NCBI GenBank assembly: GCA_945860955.1
Contig: CAMATH010000050.1
Location: 1 to 55,343 of the forward strand
Length of the DNA: 55,343 nt
Origin: Planctomicrobium piriforme
GTDB taxonomy: Bacteria > Planctomycetota > Planctomycetia > Planctomycetales > Planctomycetaceae
Direction of reading: 5' to 3'
Part shown: one piece after another, positions 39,771-47,335 of the stretch
Numbering within the stretch: position 1 is the stretch's first letter
Layout of the letters: every line of letters starts with the position of its first letter
Notes under the pieces: generated by a model
What the model was told of the DNA's origin: nothing
Seen by the model: only the letters and a program-made list of their open reading frames with translations
Databases searched by the model: none
Program-made: the position numbers and the translations under genes

Positions 39771-40232
39771 TCAACGAACCGGGCGGATCTCCAATTCGCC
39801 AGCCTCCAGCTTGTCCTTGAATCGGGTCAGGTCGGTCAGCAGCCGTCTGCGGATCATCCCTCCAATAAACAGCCCCATCACGCGCATCAGCAACCCCCTG
39901 AACTCAAAATCCACATCGACGGTCCACAAAGTCTGGTCACGAGACTTTTCGTCGAAGCGATTTTGGATCGAGTTGGTGCCGTGGCTGGTGACGTAGCGTC
40001 CTGAAAACTCCGCCCGTTCCCGCCGGGTTTCCACCGTCTCGATCATCTCAATGGTTCGGCCGTTCTCGATGTAAACCAACTTCGACGTCGCCCCCGGTTC
40101 CCCGGGCCTTCCTGAAAGAGGCTCGAAACTCACAAACGTGGGCTGCCACCGCGGAAGATTCGCGAGATTGTGGAACGCCCCCCAGACGTCGTCGCGGGGC
40201 GCGTTGAGTTCGATTTCGAAATGCAGACGCAT
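39771..40232 (-). CDS. SRPBCC-family protein
   Basis: The start MRLHFEIELNAPRDDVWGAF has GAGGAA 5 bases upstream; the frame is open further but not convincingly coding. At 153 residues it has the START-like SRPBCC layout: an N-terminal strand with the APRDDVW signature, a strand-rich middle and a long C-terminal helix (RVMGLFIGGMIRRRLLTDLTRFKDKLEAGE). Such proteins bind hydrophobic ligands in a helix-grip cavity. No ligand can be told. It lies between purH and the two-helix membrane protein. Confidence 0.82.
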   Translation of the reverse strand: MRLHFEIELNAPRDDVWGAFHNLANLPRWQPTFVSFEPLSGRPGEPGATSKLVYIENGRTIEMIETVETRRERAEFSGRYVTSHGTNSIQNRFDEKSRDQTLWTVDVDFEFRGLLMRVMGLFIGGMIRRRLLTDLTRFKDKLEAGELEIRPVR

Positions 40233-40389
40233 GGGGATTCCTCGCTCTCGGGTCCGAAAACCATTCTCATGGGAGTTCGATCGAAAGGATCGTCTCAACA
40301 ACCACGGGGCAGCCTCGTGCCGCGACTTTCCAATCCCGGCGTTCTCGCGGGCATTCCTGCCCGGCCTGAAACATGGAGGGATCGCAAAA

Positions 40390-42285: not shown

Positions 42286-45200
42286 TCACTGGGTCAATTC
42301 GAGCACATACACCGGAGACGCACGCGGCGTCGTCCCCGGCTGGCTCGTGGCGAACTCGTCAAACGCCAATGGTTGCGGACGGGGATGCAGTCGCGCGCCC
42401 GCTTGCCGAGCGGCGGCGACCACGTTGCCGTTGTCTCCCACCACGTCCGAGACAAACACCCGCGGGCGGTCACTGTCGGGACGCTCGTCGGCCGCCTCCA
42501 GTAGCCGTTCGGCGATACTCACTGTTGATCCAAAGTAGTCGAGATGGTCGTTGATCGTCGCGACCAGGGCCGATCCCTTATGCACCGACACCCGCAACGC
42601 CGGCTCATTCAGCGCCCGCATCGCGAGCGCGGCCCGCATCGCCATCACCGGTTCGGTGAATACCGCCCGCACCCCTTCTCCCACCGTCTTGATCAGCGAC
42701 CCGCCCTCCCGGCGGATGATCTCGTCGAGTTCGCGGAAGTGGGCGTGCAGTCGGCCGAACGCCGCCGAGTCTCCCAGCTCGAAATACAACCCGCCCGCAT
42801 GTTTCAGGCAGGTGGACAACAGCGTCACCTGCTGCACATGCACCAATTGTTCCGGCGCGAGACACTCGTTGGGAAACAACTCGCGAAAGATGGGGGTCGC
42901 CGCCGCTCGGGCCGCCGTGCAGGCGTCGGAACGACTCGCGGTCCGTTCCACCCGGGCGACCACTTCATGGGGCGCGTCATTGGACAATACGAAGAGTTGC
43001 CCGCCTGGTTTTAACTGCCGGGGGAGTTCCGGCTCGGGACCCCGGGCGAGGGCCAGTTCCCAGCGCGTCGCGTGAGCCTGGGGGACGACCCGAAACTCCA
43101 CGACGTATGGCAATTGCGGTCCCCGCAGTCGATACGCCCCCTCCGCCAGACTCAAGTCGAGCAGAAAGCGTTCCCCCGGCGCGAGTCGCACCTGCGCCAC
43201 CACGTGCGGCGAGTGGGCCGGCCCGCCAATGCAGTACATCCCCGTTTCAACATCCTGTATCTCCGACGAAATGCGAAAAATCAATTCAATCGAATTCGCG
43301 AAATCAAGTTCAAAATCCGCTTGGCACGCCTCGCATTCCCCATGCTCGCGAATCGTCTTGAGCGAGTCTTTCACCTGCGACGGAATGCGGCAAATCGGAC
43401 AGACAATGTCCCACAACATGGTCAGCAGTCCCTCACGCGCGCCGATCAGACACGCGGTGAGTAACTGCCGTTCGTCGAGTGAGAGGCGATTGGCCAGCGC
43501 GAGTGGCCGGATGCGACTCAACTCCTGCGCGGGAGCGGTCGCCAGAAACTCCCCCAGACGTTCGACGACGAACGGGTCGGCGCCCCGGGCGATCACCCGC
43601 TGCAACCGCTCTTCAAGCTTGCGATTCACCTCGGCGGGCAAATCATGAGCCGCCTCGAACGGGTCGGCGAGACTCCCGAGTCCTCCCGAAAGTACGGTGT
43701 CGATCCGCTGATACACTTTGTCGAGCGCCTTTTTGGTTTTCGACCCCACTTCAATCTGGGCGGCGACTTTTCCCACCAGATTGGCGGGGAGGAGTCGAAT
43801 GCGATGGGTCAGCGTGGTCCCTCCACCTGTGCGGGGAATCATCTCGACCACACTCGTGAACCATTTCCAAGGCCCCTGATGAAACTCGCGAAAGACCCCC
43901 AGTCGGCGTCCTTCGATCCATTCGAACGGATGTTCGCGCCAGGCAATGTTCATTCCCATCTTGCGAAACTGTGCGAACCGCTTCACTCCTCCCGCCGACT
44001 CCGGCTGGGCGGAGTAATCGATCGCCGGCAGCCCGATCGCGCGGTTGAGTCGCTCGGTGTTCGAAACATGCGGCCACAACGACTCAGGCGAACTTTTAAG
44101 TTCCCAGGTGAAATCGTAAGCAAGGACGTGGCGGGCGTCGGCGGTTGGAAGTTGAGGATGGGCGGCGATGCGGGTCGGTTCACCACGCAGCAACCGGTCA
44201 AGATCGTCGAGCAGACTCGACGCGTTCTCATACCGCGATTCGGGACTTTTTTGCAGGCACTTTGCGACAATCTCTTCGACGGCGTCCGAGAGTTCTGGAA
44301 CCTGGGTGCGAACGCGCGGCGCGGGTTCGTTCAGGTGCTTGTTGACAAGTCCCAGGATCGATGTTGAGTCGAATGGCGGTCGTCCCACCAGCGTGTGATA
44401 CAGCGTCGCCCCCAGCGAGTACACGTCGGCTCGTACGTCGACGTGACCCGAGCCGGAACATTGTTCGGGAGAGAAATAGAGTGGCGTCCCCAGTACCGCA
44501 CCGGCCGCCGTCAGTAGCATCGATTCGGTCTCGTTCACGTGCCGGGCGAGTCCGAAATCGGTCAGCTTCACCCGCGGAAACTCGGGAGAAGGGACGTCCG
44601 GCTCCTCGCGGCGGATGAGAATGTTTTCGGGCTTGAGATCGCGATGAACGATCCCCCGTTCGTGAGCTTCCAGAAGAGCGCGTGCGACGTCGGCGGTGAT
44701 CGAAGCCGACTCCCGCTCCGACAACCGCCCCCGTTCGCGAATGAAATCGAGCAGGTTCCGACCGTCGACGAATTCCATCACGAAGTAGTGGGTGTTTCCG
44801 TCGGCGTTCACTTCCAGCATGTTGGCGACGTAGGGGTTGTTCACCTCGGCGAGCATCCGCGCCTCGCGATGGAACCGCTTCAGCATCATCGCGTCGCGGG
44901 CCCGGTCGGCGCGCAGAATCTTGATCGCGACAATCCGCCCGTCGACCGGATCCTCCCCTTTCCAAACCGTCCCCATCCCCCCTTCACCCAGCTTCTCCAG
45001 CAGGCGAAACCGGCCCAGTGTCGTCGGTTCTACTCCTGAGCCAAAACCGCTGGCACCCTGTTGCGGAAATGACTCTTCGTCAAAGTGCGGACTGGAATTC
45101 GCGTGGCGCCCCTTCGTCCCCGGAAACTCCTCTTCCAATCGCTCTTTCGATCCAATCAACGTGTGCTGCGAGTGAAGATCCCCCGTCGTTGTGGAACCAA

Positions 45201-46113
45201 TGCCGTGCGCCGCAATCGAGGGATCGTTCCCCGAGAATTCCACCGGATTCTCCGATTGCTGCAATTCGGCGAAGCTGACCGGACCGGGGAGAGTTTCACT
45301 GAACGCGTCGGGCGAATGGGATTTTGCCGGCGGAGTCGCGACGACTGTCCCCGGCTGTGCCGCCGGGTTGAGAATGATGGTCGAATTGAGCTTCAGCCAG
45401 TCCCCCAGATACGTGCGGATGGTGTCAGCCGACGGTCGGTCGGAAGGATCGGCGGATCCCATCTGCTGATAGAGCCGATCCATCCCCGGGGGGACTTTTT
45501 CCAGCGGCACGCCGGTGGTTCCAATCAGCCGGCTCCACAACTCGAACAATTGCAGAATGTCGACCGCCGTGTCATTCCGGAAATCGTCCGGACAGATGGT
45601 GTAGTCCAAAACACAAAACGCCGTCGCATCGTCGAGCGGTCCCGACCAACCGAGATTCCCGGCTGTCAACCGCCCATGACTAAGTCCTATTCGATGCGCC
45701 GGCACCAGCGCCCCCGCGACCGCGTGAATGACCCGCACGGTGTCGTCGACGGCCATCGAATGCCGAAAATCAAACAGGCCGTCCAGGGTGAATCGGGGTG
45801 GGGGCGCGACGACATAAAACGGACGCGCGGTCTCCCATTCCAACGTCAACAGCCGCCGGGCGAATGCTGATTCCACCAACCGCACCATTCTTAAGCGGCG
45901 TAACACAGCGCGCCACTGCAACTCGTCTTCAGTCCGGGGAAACCGCAATTCCACGGGCGTATTTGTTTTTTGGTCGACCGCGCGGTAGGCGGTTCCCTGG
46001 GCGTTCGCCCACAACTGCTCCTGCAATTCGTAGCGGAGTGTCAACACGCCGATTCCCGTTCTGTCATGAGGGCCAAACCCGGAAACCGATCGTAACCGGG
46101 GGGGAATGGGCAC
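42286..46113 (-). CDS. Multidomain signalling protein: kinase-like domain, Ser/Thr kinase, SRPBCC, DUF5939, degenerate class III cyclase
   Basis: A 1275-residue cytoplasmic protein with five domains. Residues 25-240 are a kinase fold that lacks the glycine loop and has HGRLTAGNL (146-154) where HRDLKxxN belongs. Residues 369-643 are an intact Hanks-type kinase: GEGGMG 376-381, Lys398, HRDLKPEN 490-497, DFG 519-521, SPE 548-550. Residues 664-805 are SRPBCC-like (FREFHQGPWKWFTS). Residues 825-1012 match DUF5939, with a CxxC pair at C905/C908 and another at C927/C930. Residues 1093-1225 align with class III cyclases: LGDSAAFGRLHAHF and LDYFGSTVSIAERL. The expected metal-binding aspartates are Cys1102 and Glu1146, and the catalytic Asn is Ser1199, so cyclase activity is unlikely. 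The GTG start at 46113 gives the longest form; another GTG at 46047 begins right at the first domain. Confidence 0.88.
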   Translation of the reverse strand: MPIPPRLRSVSGFGPHDRTGIGVLTLRYELQEQLWANAQGTAYRAVDQKTNTPVELRFPRTEDELQWRAVLRRLRMVRLVESAFARRLLTLEWETARPFYVVAPPPRFTLDGLFDFRHSMAVDDTVRVIHAVAGALVPAHRIGLSHGRLTAGNLGWSGPLDDATAFCVLDYTICPDDFRNDTAVDILQLFELWSRLIGTTGVPLEKVPPGMDRLYQQMGSADPSDRPSADTIRTYLGDWLKLNSTIILNPAAQPGTVVATPPAKSHSPDAFSETLPGPVSFAELQQSENPVEFSGNDPSIAAHGIGSTTTGDLHSQHTLIGSKERLEEEFPGTKGRHANSSPHFDEESFPQQGASGFGSGVEPTTLGRFRLLEKLGEGGMGTVWKGEDPVDGRIVAIKILRADRARDAMMLKRFHREARMLAEVNNPYVANMLEVNADGNTHYFVMEFVDGRNLLDFIRERGRLSERESASITADVARALLEAHERGIVHRDLKPENILIRREEPDVPSPEFPRVKLTDFGLARHVNETESMLLTAAGAVLGTPLYFSPEQCSGSGHVDVRADVYSLGATLYHTLVGRPPFDSTSILGLVNKHLNEPAPRVRTQVPELSDAVEEIVAKCLQKSPESRYENASSLLDDLDRLLRGEPTRIAAHPQLPTADARHVLAYDFTWELKSSPESLWPHVSNTERLNRAIGLPAIDYSAQPESAGGVKRFAQFRKMGMNIAWREHPFEWIEGRRLGVFREFHQGPWKWFTSVVEMIPRTGGGTTLTHRIRLLPANLVGKVAAQIEVGSKTKKALDKVYQRIDTVLSGGLGSLADPFEAAHDLPAEVNRKLEERLQRVIARGADPFVVERLGEFLATAPAQELSRIRPLALANRLSLDERQLLTACLIGAREGLLTMLWDIVCPICRIPSQVKDSLKTIREHGECEACQADFELDFANSIELIFRISSEIQDVETGMYCIGGPAHSPHVVAQVRLAPGERFLLDLSLAEGAYRLRGPQLPYVVEFRVVPQAHATRWELALARGPEPELPRQLKPGGQLFVLSNDAPHEVVARVERTASRSDACTAARAAATPIFRELFPNECLAPEQLVHVQQVTLLSTCLKHAGGLYFELGDSAAFGRLHAHFRELDEIIRREGGSLIKTVGEGVRAVFTEPVMAMRAALAMRALNEPALRVSVHKGSALVATINDHLDYFGSTVSIAERLLEAADERPDSDRPRVFVSDVVGDNGNVVAAARQAGARLHPRPQPLAFDEFATSQPGTTPRASPVYVLELTQ

Positions 46114-46297: not shown

Positions 46298-47335
46298 GTG
46301 GGCCGAATTCCCTTGGCTGCCGAACAGCGTGATTTCGACGAGTTCCTGGAAAAGTTCCGCAAACATCGCGATTTGATGACCGAGGAGTTGCACAAGGTCA
46401 TCATCGGGCAGGATGTGGTGATCGAGCAGATTCTCGCCGCCATTTTCACCGGGGGACACTGCCTGCTGGTCGGCGTGCCCGGGCTGGCAAAGACGCTTCT
46501 GGTCAGTACGATCGCCCGAATTCTCGATGTGAAGTTCAAGCGGATCCAATTCACCCCCGACCTGATGCCCTCGGACATCACCGGAACCACGGTGCTGGAA
46601 GAGACCGAAACCGGGGGCCGCAACTTCCGATTTGTCGAAGGGCCGGTCTTCACCAATATTCTCTTGGCCGACGAAATCAACCGGACCCCGCCGAAAACCC
46701 AGGCGGCCCTGTTGCAGTCGATGCAGGAACATGAGGTGACGATCGGGCAGACCACCTACCCGCTCCCCGATCCGTTCTTTGTCATCGCCACGCAAAACCC
46801 GATCGAGCAGGAAGGAACCTACCCGCTGCCCGAAGCGCAGCTCGACCGGTTCATGTTCAACATCAAGGTCGACTACCCCTCGCTGGCAGAGGAAGAGAAG
46901 ATCCTGAGCGCGACCAGCAATGCCGAGAAGCCCGAGATTCGCAAGGTGCTATCCGCCAAAGCGATTCAGTTTCTGCAAAAGCAGATCAACCAGATCCAGG
47001 CAACGCCGCTCACGATCAACTACGTCGCGCGACTGGTGCGGGCGACCCGTCCGGGAGATCCCTCGGCTCCCGCGTTCGTCAAAGAACTGGTCGACTGGGG
47101 GGCGGGGCCGCGTGCCGGCCAATACCTGATCGCCGGGGCTCGCGCCGTCGCCGCCATGGATGGCCGGCCCAGTATCTCCGTCAAAGACGTTCGGCGGGTC
47201 GCCGTCCCTGTCTTGCGACACCGCCTGTCGACCAACTTCCAGGCGCAAGCCGAGAATATGCGGTCCGAGGATGTGATCGAGCGGCTGCTGGTCGAAGTCC
47301 CCGAGCCACCGATCCCCAAATACGAACGGGGCTGA
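46298..47335 (+). CDS. MoxR-family AAA ATPase
   Basis: The 345-residue ATPase starts with GTG; no strong ribosome binding site is visible, and a TTG near codon 6 is an alternative. Walker A is GVPGLAKT (59-66), Walker B LLADEIN (123-129), with the sensor region FVIATQNPIEQEGTYPLPEAQLDRF typical of MoxR. The C-terminal lid contains VARLVRATRP and SVKDVRRVAVPVLRHRL. MoxR ATPases act as chaperones that mature or activate protein complexes, usually next to DUF58 and von Willebrand A genes. Those are absent here. It is transcribed divergently from the multidomain kinase, with 184 bases between them. Confidence 0.93.
   Translation: MGRIPLAAEQRDFDEFLEKFRKHRDLMTEELHKVIIGQDVVIEQILAAIFTGGHCLLVGVPGLAKTLLVSTIARILDVKFKRIQFTPDLMPSDITGTTVLEETETGGRNFRFVEGPVFTNILLADEINRTPPKTQAALLQSMQEHEVTIGQTTYPLPDPFFVIATQNPIEQEGTYPLPEAQLDRFMFNIKVDYPSLAEEEKILSATSNAEKPEIRKVLSAKAIQFLQKQINQIQATPLTINYVARLVRATRPGDPSAPAFVKELVDWGAGPRAGQYLIAGARAVAAMDGRPSISVKDVRRVAVPVLRHRLSTNFQAQAENMRSEDVIERLLVEVPEPPIPKYERG

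Follow-up and report, generated by a model that had tools for sequence, protein, structure and literature searches.

Why would a bacterium keep a nucleotidyl cyclase without its metal site in the same chain as an intact-looking protein kinase? The question is raised by a gene of Planctomicrobium piriforme (phylum Planctomycetota; GenBank assembly GCA_945860955.1, contig CAMATH010000050.1) at positions 42286-46113 of the window, by which we mean the whole 55,343-nucleotide stretch of DNA that was analyzed. The open reading frame (ORF) lies on the minus strand, begins with a GTG codon and encodes a 1275-amino-acid protein in which a pseudokinase, a Hanks-type Ser/Thr kinase, an SRPBCC-like domain, a DUF5939 domain and a degenerate class III nucleotidyl cyclase (here called the pseudocyclase) follow one another. 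We have found that loss of the metal site is near-absolute across the fused family: both metal aspartates are present in none of 75 readable fused proteins versus 57 of 58 relatives in which no kinase is visible. Our best explanation, to which we give somewhat better than even credence, is that an output swap produced a sensor kinase in which the dead cyclase remains as the regulatory module.

The original prediction, made from the sequence alone, had placed DUF5939 and a class III cyclase fold behind the kinases, and both assignments hold. The DUF5939 model of Pfam matches residues 837-956 (E 7e-17; 61.9 bits versus a cut-off of 22.5) and is covered from profile position 7 to 127 of 281. For the tail, the Guanylate_cyc model of Pfam aligns with residues 1119-1208 under its cut-off (E 0.0014; 18.7 versus 21.9 bits), and comparison with the Protein Data Bank leads to the Ma1120 cyclase of Mycobacterium avium (phmmer E 1.6e-6; profile E 4.4e-22). 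An AlphaFold model of residues 664-1275 (mean predicted local distance difference test score [pLDDT] 93.2; predicted template modeling score [pTM] 0.88) superimposes on Ma1120 over 155 residues with a Z-score of 21.6 and a root mean square deviation of 1.8. Alignments for the AlphaFold models were built solely from the window protein and sequences of related loci.

Residues 1102, 1146 and 1199 had been read as the positions of the first metal aspartate, the second metal aspartate and the transition-state asparagine, and the alignment agrees. The two aspartates are replaced by Cys1102 and Glu1146, and Ser1199 stands at the asparagine position, though the transition-state Arg1203 is kept. The base-specifying pair, Lys1142 and Asp1192, is present. 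One strand of the earlier argument has to be relaxed: the serine is where it was said to be, but the Asn-to-Ser change alone is weak evidence because Ma1120 carries alanine at the aligned position and is active, with adenylyl cyclase activity given in a kinetic table in the accessible part of PMC4215837. With both metal aspartates substituted here and the pair absent from every readable fused protein, the claim that the metal site of the cyclase is gone stands, and we regard the loss of cyclase catalysis in the window protein as very likely.

How widely is this state shared? A query with the C-terminal half matched 11 of 59 genomes, which represent 10 of the 52 genera covered (own genome included), and DUF5939 was found in 49 of 392 genomes sampled across the phylum. 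The main comparison set came from a C-terminal alignment scan of GTDB species genomes, from which the best 80 of 126 relatives were used; the window protein and two more orthologues brought it to 83 proteins, 69 fused and 14 kinase-less. Among the former, L060 was counted as fused by its 68% identity to the window protein, its contig beginning within the SRPBCC part so that the kinase is not seen. The latter are 608-703 amino acids long and come from Verrucomicrobiota (12), Myxococcales (one) and Anaerolineales (one). A second sample listed 58 DUF5939 matches, of which two were already in the set (the window protein and G049) and two were cut before the cyclase motifs (L137, L170); the remaining 54 comprised 10 fused proteins and 44 in which no kinase was visible.

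Both metal aspartates occur in 0 of 65 plus 0 of 10 fused proteins, the truncated L069, L093, L112 and L120 being left out of these 75, which belong to two phyla, Planctomycetota and Myxococcota. The proteins without a visible kinase contrast sharply (14 of 14, 28 of 29 and 15 of 15), and subtracting three whose contigs stop on the N-terminal side, where a kinase is possible (L127, L049, L167), leaves 54 of 55. The sole exception, L038, has glutamate at the second metal position. The premise that SRPBCC and DUF5939 normally accompany an active cyclase is thereby borne out in the sense that the cyclase is normally canonical in its metal residues. Two further proteins, L144 (3759-6584) and L145 (3790-6696), have the SRPBCC-DUF5939-pseudocyclase order with a kinase at the C-terminus, and the cyclase is degenerate there as well. 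As a separate observation, L140:3610-8064 encodes a 1484-amino-acid protein in which a canonical DUF5939-cyclase is preceded by a long stretch without a kinase match.

The fusion itself is conserved across relatives, contrary to the scenario in which the domains of orthologues are separate proteins and the window gene is an isolated accident. Nine orthologues readable whole keep the domain order, one without the pseudokinase. An accident or artefact is also ruled out by the congener G002, which carries pieces 91-97% identical, although its gene is fragmented in a draft assembly (two overlapping reading frames, two contigs). No split versions were noticed among the fused loci, the ORFs upstream of 19 pseudokinase-less relatives not having been searched for a separate pseudokinase.

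Which parts of the former active site have been kept? When the 127 columns of an alignment of 70 fused sequences were ranked by entropy, Lys1142 (conserved in 62 of 70) came 9th and Asp1192 (60 of 70) 11th, while the columns of residues 1102, 1199 (Asn) and 1203 (Arg) ranked 92nd, 89th and 83rd. Over all 75 fused proteins, the lysine is kept in 64, the aspartate in 63 and both in 57. At the first metal position, aspartate remains in four, with arginine in 22 and glutamine in 12; the transition-state asparagine survives in 10 and the arginine in 24. Because the base pair persists as the first metal, asparagine and arginine positions decay, a nucleotide-binding role is favored over a bare scaffold.

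Such a scaffold, in which the pseudocyclase is purely a dimerization or spacer element that relays the signal of SRPBCC/DUF5939 to the kinase with no nucleotide bound, is an alternative that we take seriously while thinking it rather unlikely. It would fit the observation that Phe1152, Gly1138, HxG and DYFG are conserved like the fold core. It would also fit the weaker base pair in the group without a pseudokinase (Lys in 15 and Asp in 12 of 20), a group in which L107 is misplaced, since it has a pseudokinase-like region that fell outside the length filter. In the group with a pseudokinase, however, almost every protein keeps the pair (46 and 47 of 48), and with L107 moved by hand the counts become 47 and 48 of 49 versus 14 and 11 of 19, uncorrected for kinship. 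The Lys1142 column is also far more conserved than its direct neighbors (0.67 bits versus 1.60 and 2.63), which counts against a pure scaffold.

A retained base pair without metal aspartates is also what mammalian C2 domains display, and the tail could be a C2-like half-site that completes an active heterodimer with a metal-bearing cyclase of the cell; the genome has four other cyclase matches. A C2-type partner requires the asparagine and arginine, and this alternative is disfavored because both drift in the fused family, the asparagine being lost in the window protein itself. Inspected by eye, the other four cyclases include no clear metal-only type, and one of them (L148) is without the metal aspartate. 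We consider a half-site of this kind very improbable.

Are the degenerate domains under selection? The ratio of nonsynonymous to synonymous substitution rates (dN/dS) was calculated between the window gene and that of congener G002 over 1130 codons by the NG86 method. It was 0.000 and 0.061 for kinase segments, 0.021 for SRPBCC, 0.073 for DUF5939, 0.077 for the pseudocyclase, 0.157 for the pseudokinase and 0.404 for the linker (244-360). The values for the two dead domains indicate that both are maintained by purifying selection. They speak against the view that these domains are remnants on their way to being lost, with the kinase and SRPBCC/DUF5939 doing the work, as does the tail, which is still alignable in all 75 readable members of the fused family across two phyla. 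Drift at the first metal, asparagine and arginine positions and the absence of the pseudokinase from 19 relatives are what such a course of loss would produce, yet we judge it improbable. That the pseudocyclase has a regulatory role of some kind we hold with good confidence.

The inner kinase had been described as complete, and it is: residues 370-629 match Pfam Pkinase (E 4.3e-53; 180.8 bits versus a cut-off of 31.7) and display the Gly loop, VAIK, HRDxKxxN and DFG. Across the fused family, HRDxKxxN is found in 76 of 76 scanned kinase domains and DFG in 75, the scan covering all but L060, L086 and L147, in which the kinase is missing, partial or matched only piecewise. All four motif patterns occur in 64 of the 76, and the remainder are mostly truncated domains or variants such as AAVK. 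These motifs lead us to predict that the inner kinase is catalytically active.

The N-terminal domain is a kinase fold of a different kind. Residues 24-243 alone match the family kinase profile (E 3e-7), a profile built from the N-terminal regions of 44 proteins finds PknB (E 1.4e-27), and the AlphaFold model (pLDDT 91.6; pTM 0.88) resembles NEK7 (Z 21.9), PknA (Z 21.3) and PknB (Z 20.9). In the window protein VAIK reads VELR (Lys to Arg), HRD reads HGR and DFG reads DYT; the third glycine of the Gly loop is retained. Among 51 N-terminal regions selected by length (200-420 amino acids), the VAIK lysine is present in none and the HRD aspartate in four. An aspartate in line with that of DFG in the PknB alignment persists in 40, and at the DFG glycine position Gly is not among the eight commonest residues. 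Matched alone, 32 of the 51, the window protein included, reach the family kinase profile at E < 1e-3 and 19 do not. The earlier description of a first kinase fold without Gly loop, HRD or DFG is therefore right as to the fold and the lost HRD aspartate, and too strong as to the DFG aspartate and the third glycine, which are kept. The pseudokinase is not essential to the design, since 19 relatives, whose complete N-terminus spans 45-131 amino acids, do without one.

Phylogenetic trees were constructed from the SRPBCC and DUF5939 columns only, with cyclase columns excluded. In a tree of an 84-row subset, the main fused clade takes up 61 rows and is nested among kinase-less proteins with a Shimodaira-Hasegawa-like approximate likelihood ratio test (SH-aLRT) value of 99; in a smaller tree it holds 29 of 46 rows and is nested likewise (support 100/99). 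L122, a kinase-less and canonical protein of Myxococcales, and L147 group near the main fused clade (97/96), and L144 and L145 branch away from it. These placements hint at more than one loss of catalysis.

From this we propose the following course. The ancestor would have been an SRPBCC-DUF5939-class III cyclase of the type still extant as the kinase-less canonical protein. Kinase domains would have been gained at its N-terminus; the inner kinase would then have been kept intact as the output and the outer one would have become a pseudokinase, while the cyclase lost its metal site and its fold was retained as a non-catalytic module. Loss of the metal residues, retention of the base-recognition residues and the joining of an intact-looking kinase together suggest that an old second-messenger enzyme, a sensor that made cyclic AMP, was turned into a kinase switch. 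PknB-type kinases are activated by dimerization. Because class III cyclases hold nucleotide at their dimer interface, we propose a dimer switch in which an adenine nucleotide (ATP, AMP or cyclic AMP [cAMP]) would be read by Lys1142 and Asp1192 and no longer be turned over. That nucleotide and a ligand of SRPBCC/DUF5939 would jointly set the dimer state and thereby the trans-activation of two kinases. In one planctomycete subclade, a co-directional FHA-EAL protein, which combines a phosphothreonine reader with a cyclic-di-GMP phosphodiesterase fold, would be the likely target or reader of the phosphorylation and would alter cyclic-di-GMP. Nucleotide binding, dimer switching and the FHA-EAL link are inferences. 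The chance that the pseudocyclase binds adenine nucleotide seems to us a little short of even. We offer only tentatively the full scheme, a class of nucleotide-gated Ser/Thr kinases in which what was once an adenylate cyclase site senses an adenine nucleotide (perhaps the cAMP of other cyclases) and drives kinase dimerization, with one planctomycete subclade signaling through FHA-EAL. If true, it would wire adenine-nucleotide state to cyclic-di-GMP turnover in that subclade, and it raises a testable question, namely whether a bacterial Ser/Thr kinase senses nucleotide through a former cyclase site.

What do the neighboring genes say about output? With the window excluded, an FHA-EAL gene lies downstream on the same strand at 20 of 78 fused loci, 19 of them belonging to the 65 loci where the sequence continues for 900 bp or more beyond the fused gene. 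By match position the distance is 150 bp or less in 18 of the 20, sometimes with overlap. The 17 of these loci placed in the tree sit in a single subclade of 27 rows (84-row subset). A crude search for EAL motifs recovered all those sought in 4 of 16 proteins (L084, L099, L100, L108), the others being without one or more. This gene is probably an operon partner tying Ser/Thr phosphorylation to cyclic-di-GMP. It adjoins the fused gene in a cultured planctomycete, Blastopirellula marina (L100), where its product is a candidate kinase target. A second family, DUF6666, is encoded no more than 1.2 kb from the fused gene at 24 of 78 loci, with no fixed side or strand and in two cases with another gene in between; by eye, its proteins have an apparent signal peptide and are beta-rich. 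In a partner scan of 14 of the 20 fused genomes with a genome handle, FHA-EAL homologues (E < 1e-15) were found in nine, five of them adjacent to the fused gene, and DUF6666 in eight, in one or two copies, with one copy near the fused gene in all eight.

Several observations weigh against the switch that we favor. Asp1192 lies within the conserved DYFG turn, so structure may explain its conservation. An acidic residue occupies the second metal position in 59 of 75 fused proteins (Glu in 32, Asp in 27); this position ranks 43rd of 127 columns by entropy, and thus does not drift freely. Acidic residues stand at both metal positions in 15 of the 75, and L113 (CP036526.1, Planctomycetes bacterium K23_9) has the most canonical tail of the fused proteins, reading E/K/D/E/N/R at positions equivalent to 1102, 1142, 1146, 1192, 1199 and 1203, with glutamate at the first metal position and at the base aspartate as its only departures. 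Some relatives might therefore retain activity, L113 being the one that might be a candidate for residual cyclase function, and the cyclase of the window protein could likewise be weakly active through substituted acidic residues. Its Cys1102 and the mostly non-acidic first metal position of the family argue otherwise, and we think weak activity highly improbable. Two further points concern origin and output. The approximately unbiased test does not reject a tree in which all fused forms make up one clade (p 0.172), so several independent losses cannot be claimed. In the window genome, an FHA-EAL query gave 10 matches, to FHA segments only, with no full-length FHA-EAL, and DUF6666 was not found in a search in which control profiles gave no match either, though the DUF6666 model matches other planctomycetes. 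The proposed output is therefore unsupported for the window protein itself.

How does the arrangement compare with known systems? The SRPBCC-DUF5939-class III cyclases (PF19363, L121-L134) share the SRPBCC-DUF5939-Cys4-cyclase order and are homologous along the whole tail; unlike the window protein, they have no kinase that can be seen and read D/K/D/D/N/R in 14 of 14. Hanks kinases of the PknB/StkP type likewise have all kinase motifs, but the window protein is without PASTA in the Pfam scan, scores 305.9 of the 450 bits required by PknB_PASTA_kin, and adds a pseudokinase as well as SRPBCC-DUF5939-pseudocyclase behind the kinase. The TOMM kinase/cyclase fusion (TIGR03903) joins, by its name, kinase and cyclase in one chain; it was rejected as the identity of this protein, which reaches 122.3 of the 705.75 bits required, with the match confined to the kinase.

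Regulation of live enzymes by dead kinases is well established; we know of hardly any description of a dead class III cyclase regulating a live kinase. Precedents for the components do exist, and the present case has unusually clear evolutionary evidence. The receptor guanylyl cyclases GC-A and GC-C also have kinase and cyclase folds in one chain, one of them dead, and according to the accessible text of PMC10400071 the pseudokinase is a scaffold and transducer to the cyclase. The window protein is bacterial and arranged as their mirror image, with the kinase intact and the cyclase dead, and if the proposal is true a dead cyclase would be the allosteric regulator of a live kinase. Inactive cyclic nucleotide cyclase domains have been suggested to be nucleotide binders or dominant negatives in vWA-MoxR conflict systems (PMC7159879); in the sections available, these are fused to vWA, and no DUF5939/Hanks kinase of the present order appears. 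In the open-access collection searched, which leaves out most subscription papers and so is no proof of absence, we found no paper on DUF5939 or pseudocyclases, and none on planctomycete kinases with cyclases or pseudokinases, degenerate class III cyclase-kinase fusions, or FHA-EAL with a threonine kinase. Planctomycetota is a kinase-rich phylum, with 60 Ser/Thr kinases listed for Rhodopirellula baltica in the available part of PMC1183210.

Positions of all features are collected in Table 1. The Pfam scan of the 1275-amino-acid protein gave no match for SRPBCC. The label follows from the order of secondary structure elements in the model, which fits a helix-grip fold, and from one Foldseek row, to the PR-10 protein 3e85 (E 3.4e-7), for which the aligned model range was not given and the SRPBCC part was not queried alone. 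The Cys4 motif of the DUF5939 region is a probable zinc ribbon.

Table 1. Features of the fused protein in window coordinates, with selected neighboring genes (locus coordinates where a locus is named)
Feature	Position	Strand	Basis
Whole ORF, 1275 amino acids, pseudokinase-kinase-SRPBCC-DUF5939-pseudocyclase	42286..46113	-	ORF call, Pfam, orthologues
Pseudokinase, residues 24-243	45385..46044	-	Kinase-profile match, PknB profile, AlphaFold model, structural matches, motif counts
Linker, residues 244-365, low conservation	45019..45384	-	Poor alignment; dN/dS high
Hanks-type Ser/Thr kinase, residues 366-632, catalytic motifs complete	44218..45018	-	Pfam Pkinase; HRDxKxxN scan
SRPBCC/Bet v 1-like domain, about residues 664-808	43690..44124	-	Model; one Foldseek row
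DUF5939 core, residues 837-956	43246..43605	-	Pfam PF19363 E 7.3e-17; also 2.0e-17
Cys4 motif CPxC...CxxC (C905, C908, C927, C930)	43324..43401	-	Four Cys invariant in 63 aligned sequences
Beta-rich stretch joining DUF5939 core to cyclase fold, about residues 971-1057	42943..43203	-	Model secondary structure
Pseudocyclase, class III nucleotidyl cyclase fold, residues 1090-1275	42289..42846	-	Z 21.6 to Ma1120; profile E 4.4e-22
C1102, first metal Asp position	42808..42810	-	Aligned with Asp of Ma1120
E1146, second metal Asp position	42676..42678	-	Aligned with Asp of Ma1120
K1142, base-recognition Lys, equivalent to Ma1120 K101	42688..42690	-	Entropy rank 9 of 127 columns; PMC4215837 (accessible part)
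D1192, base-recognition Asp, equivalent to Ma1120 D157	42538..42540	-	Entropy rank 11 of 127 columns; PMC4215837 (accessible part)
S1199, transition-state Asn position	42517..42519	-	Entropy rank 89 of 127; Ala in Ma1120
R1203, transition-state Arg position, Arg retained in the window protein	42505..42507	-	Arg in 24 of 75 fused
FHA-EAL gene examples	L099:7932-9044; L084:7839-8924	Same as fused gene	
DUF6666 gene examples	L057:3205-4203; L070:7967-8872		
MoxR-type AAA ATPase, divergent from the kinase gene	46298-47335	+	

The immediate neighbors of the window gene are purH, 79 bp downstream, and the gene for a MoxR-type AAA ATPase, 185 bp upstream on the opposite strand. Neither is conserved beside the related loci, among whose neighbors no MoxR relative occurs. 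An ABC transporter farther away belongs to a family in common with three other loci. A separate small SRPBCC protein is encoded near the fused gene (39771-40268, minus strand; Polyketide_cyc2, E 1e-10).

The four other cyclase matches of the window genome (L148-L151) are of two kinds. L148 (G000:C136:15174-18710) has HAMP-like and sensor parts by eye, with Glu and Ala at the metal positions, and is probably another dead cyclase; a match to a cyclic nucleotide-binding domain lies near it on the same contig. L149, L150 and L151 appear by eye to be FHA-GAF-cyclases that keep the metal aspartates, the asparagine and the arginine, and are possible phosphothreonine-regulated cyclases in the same cell.

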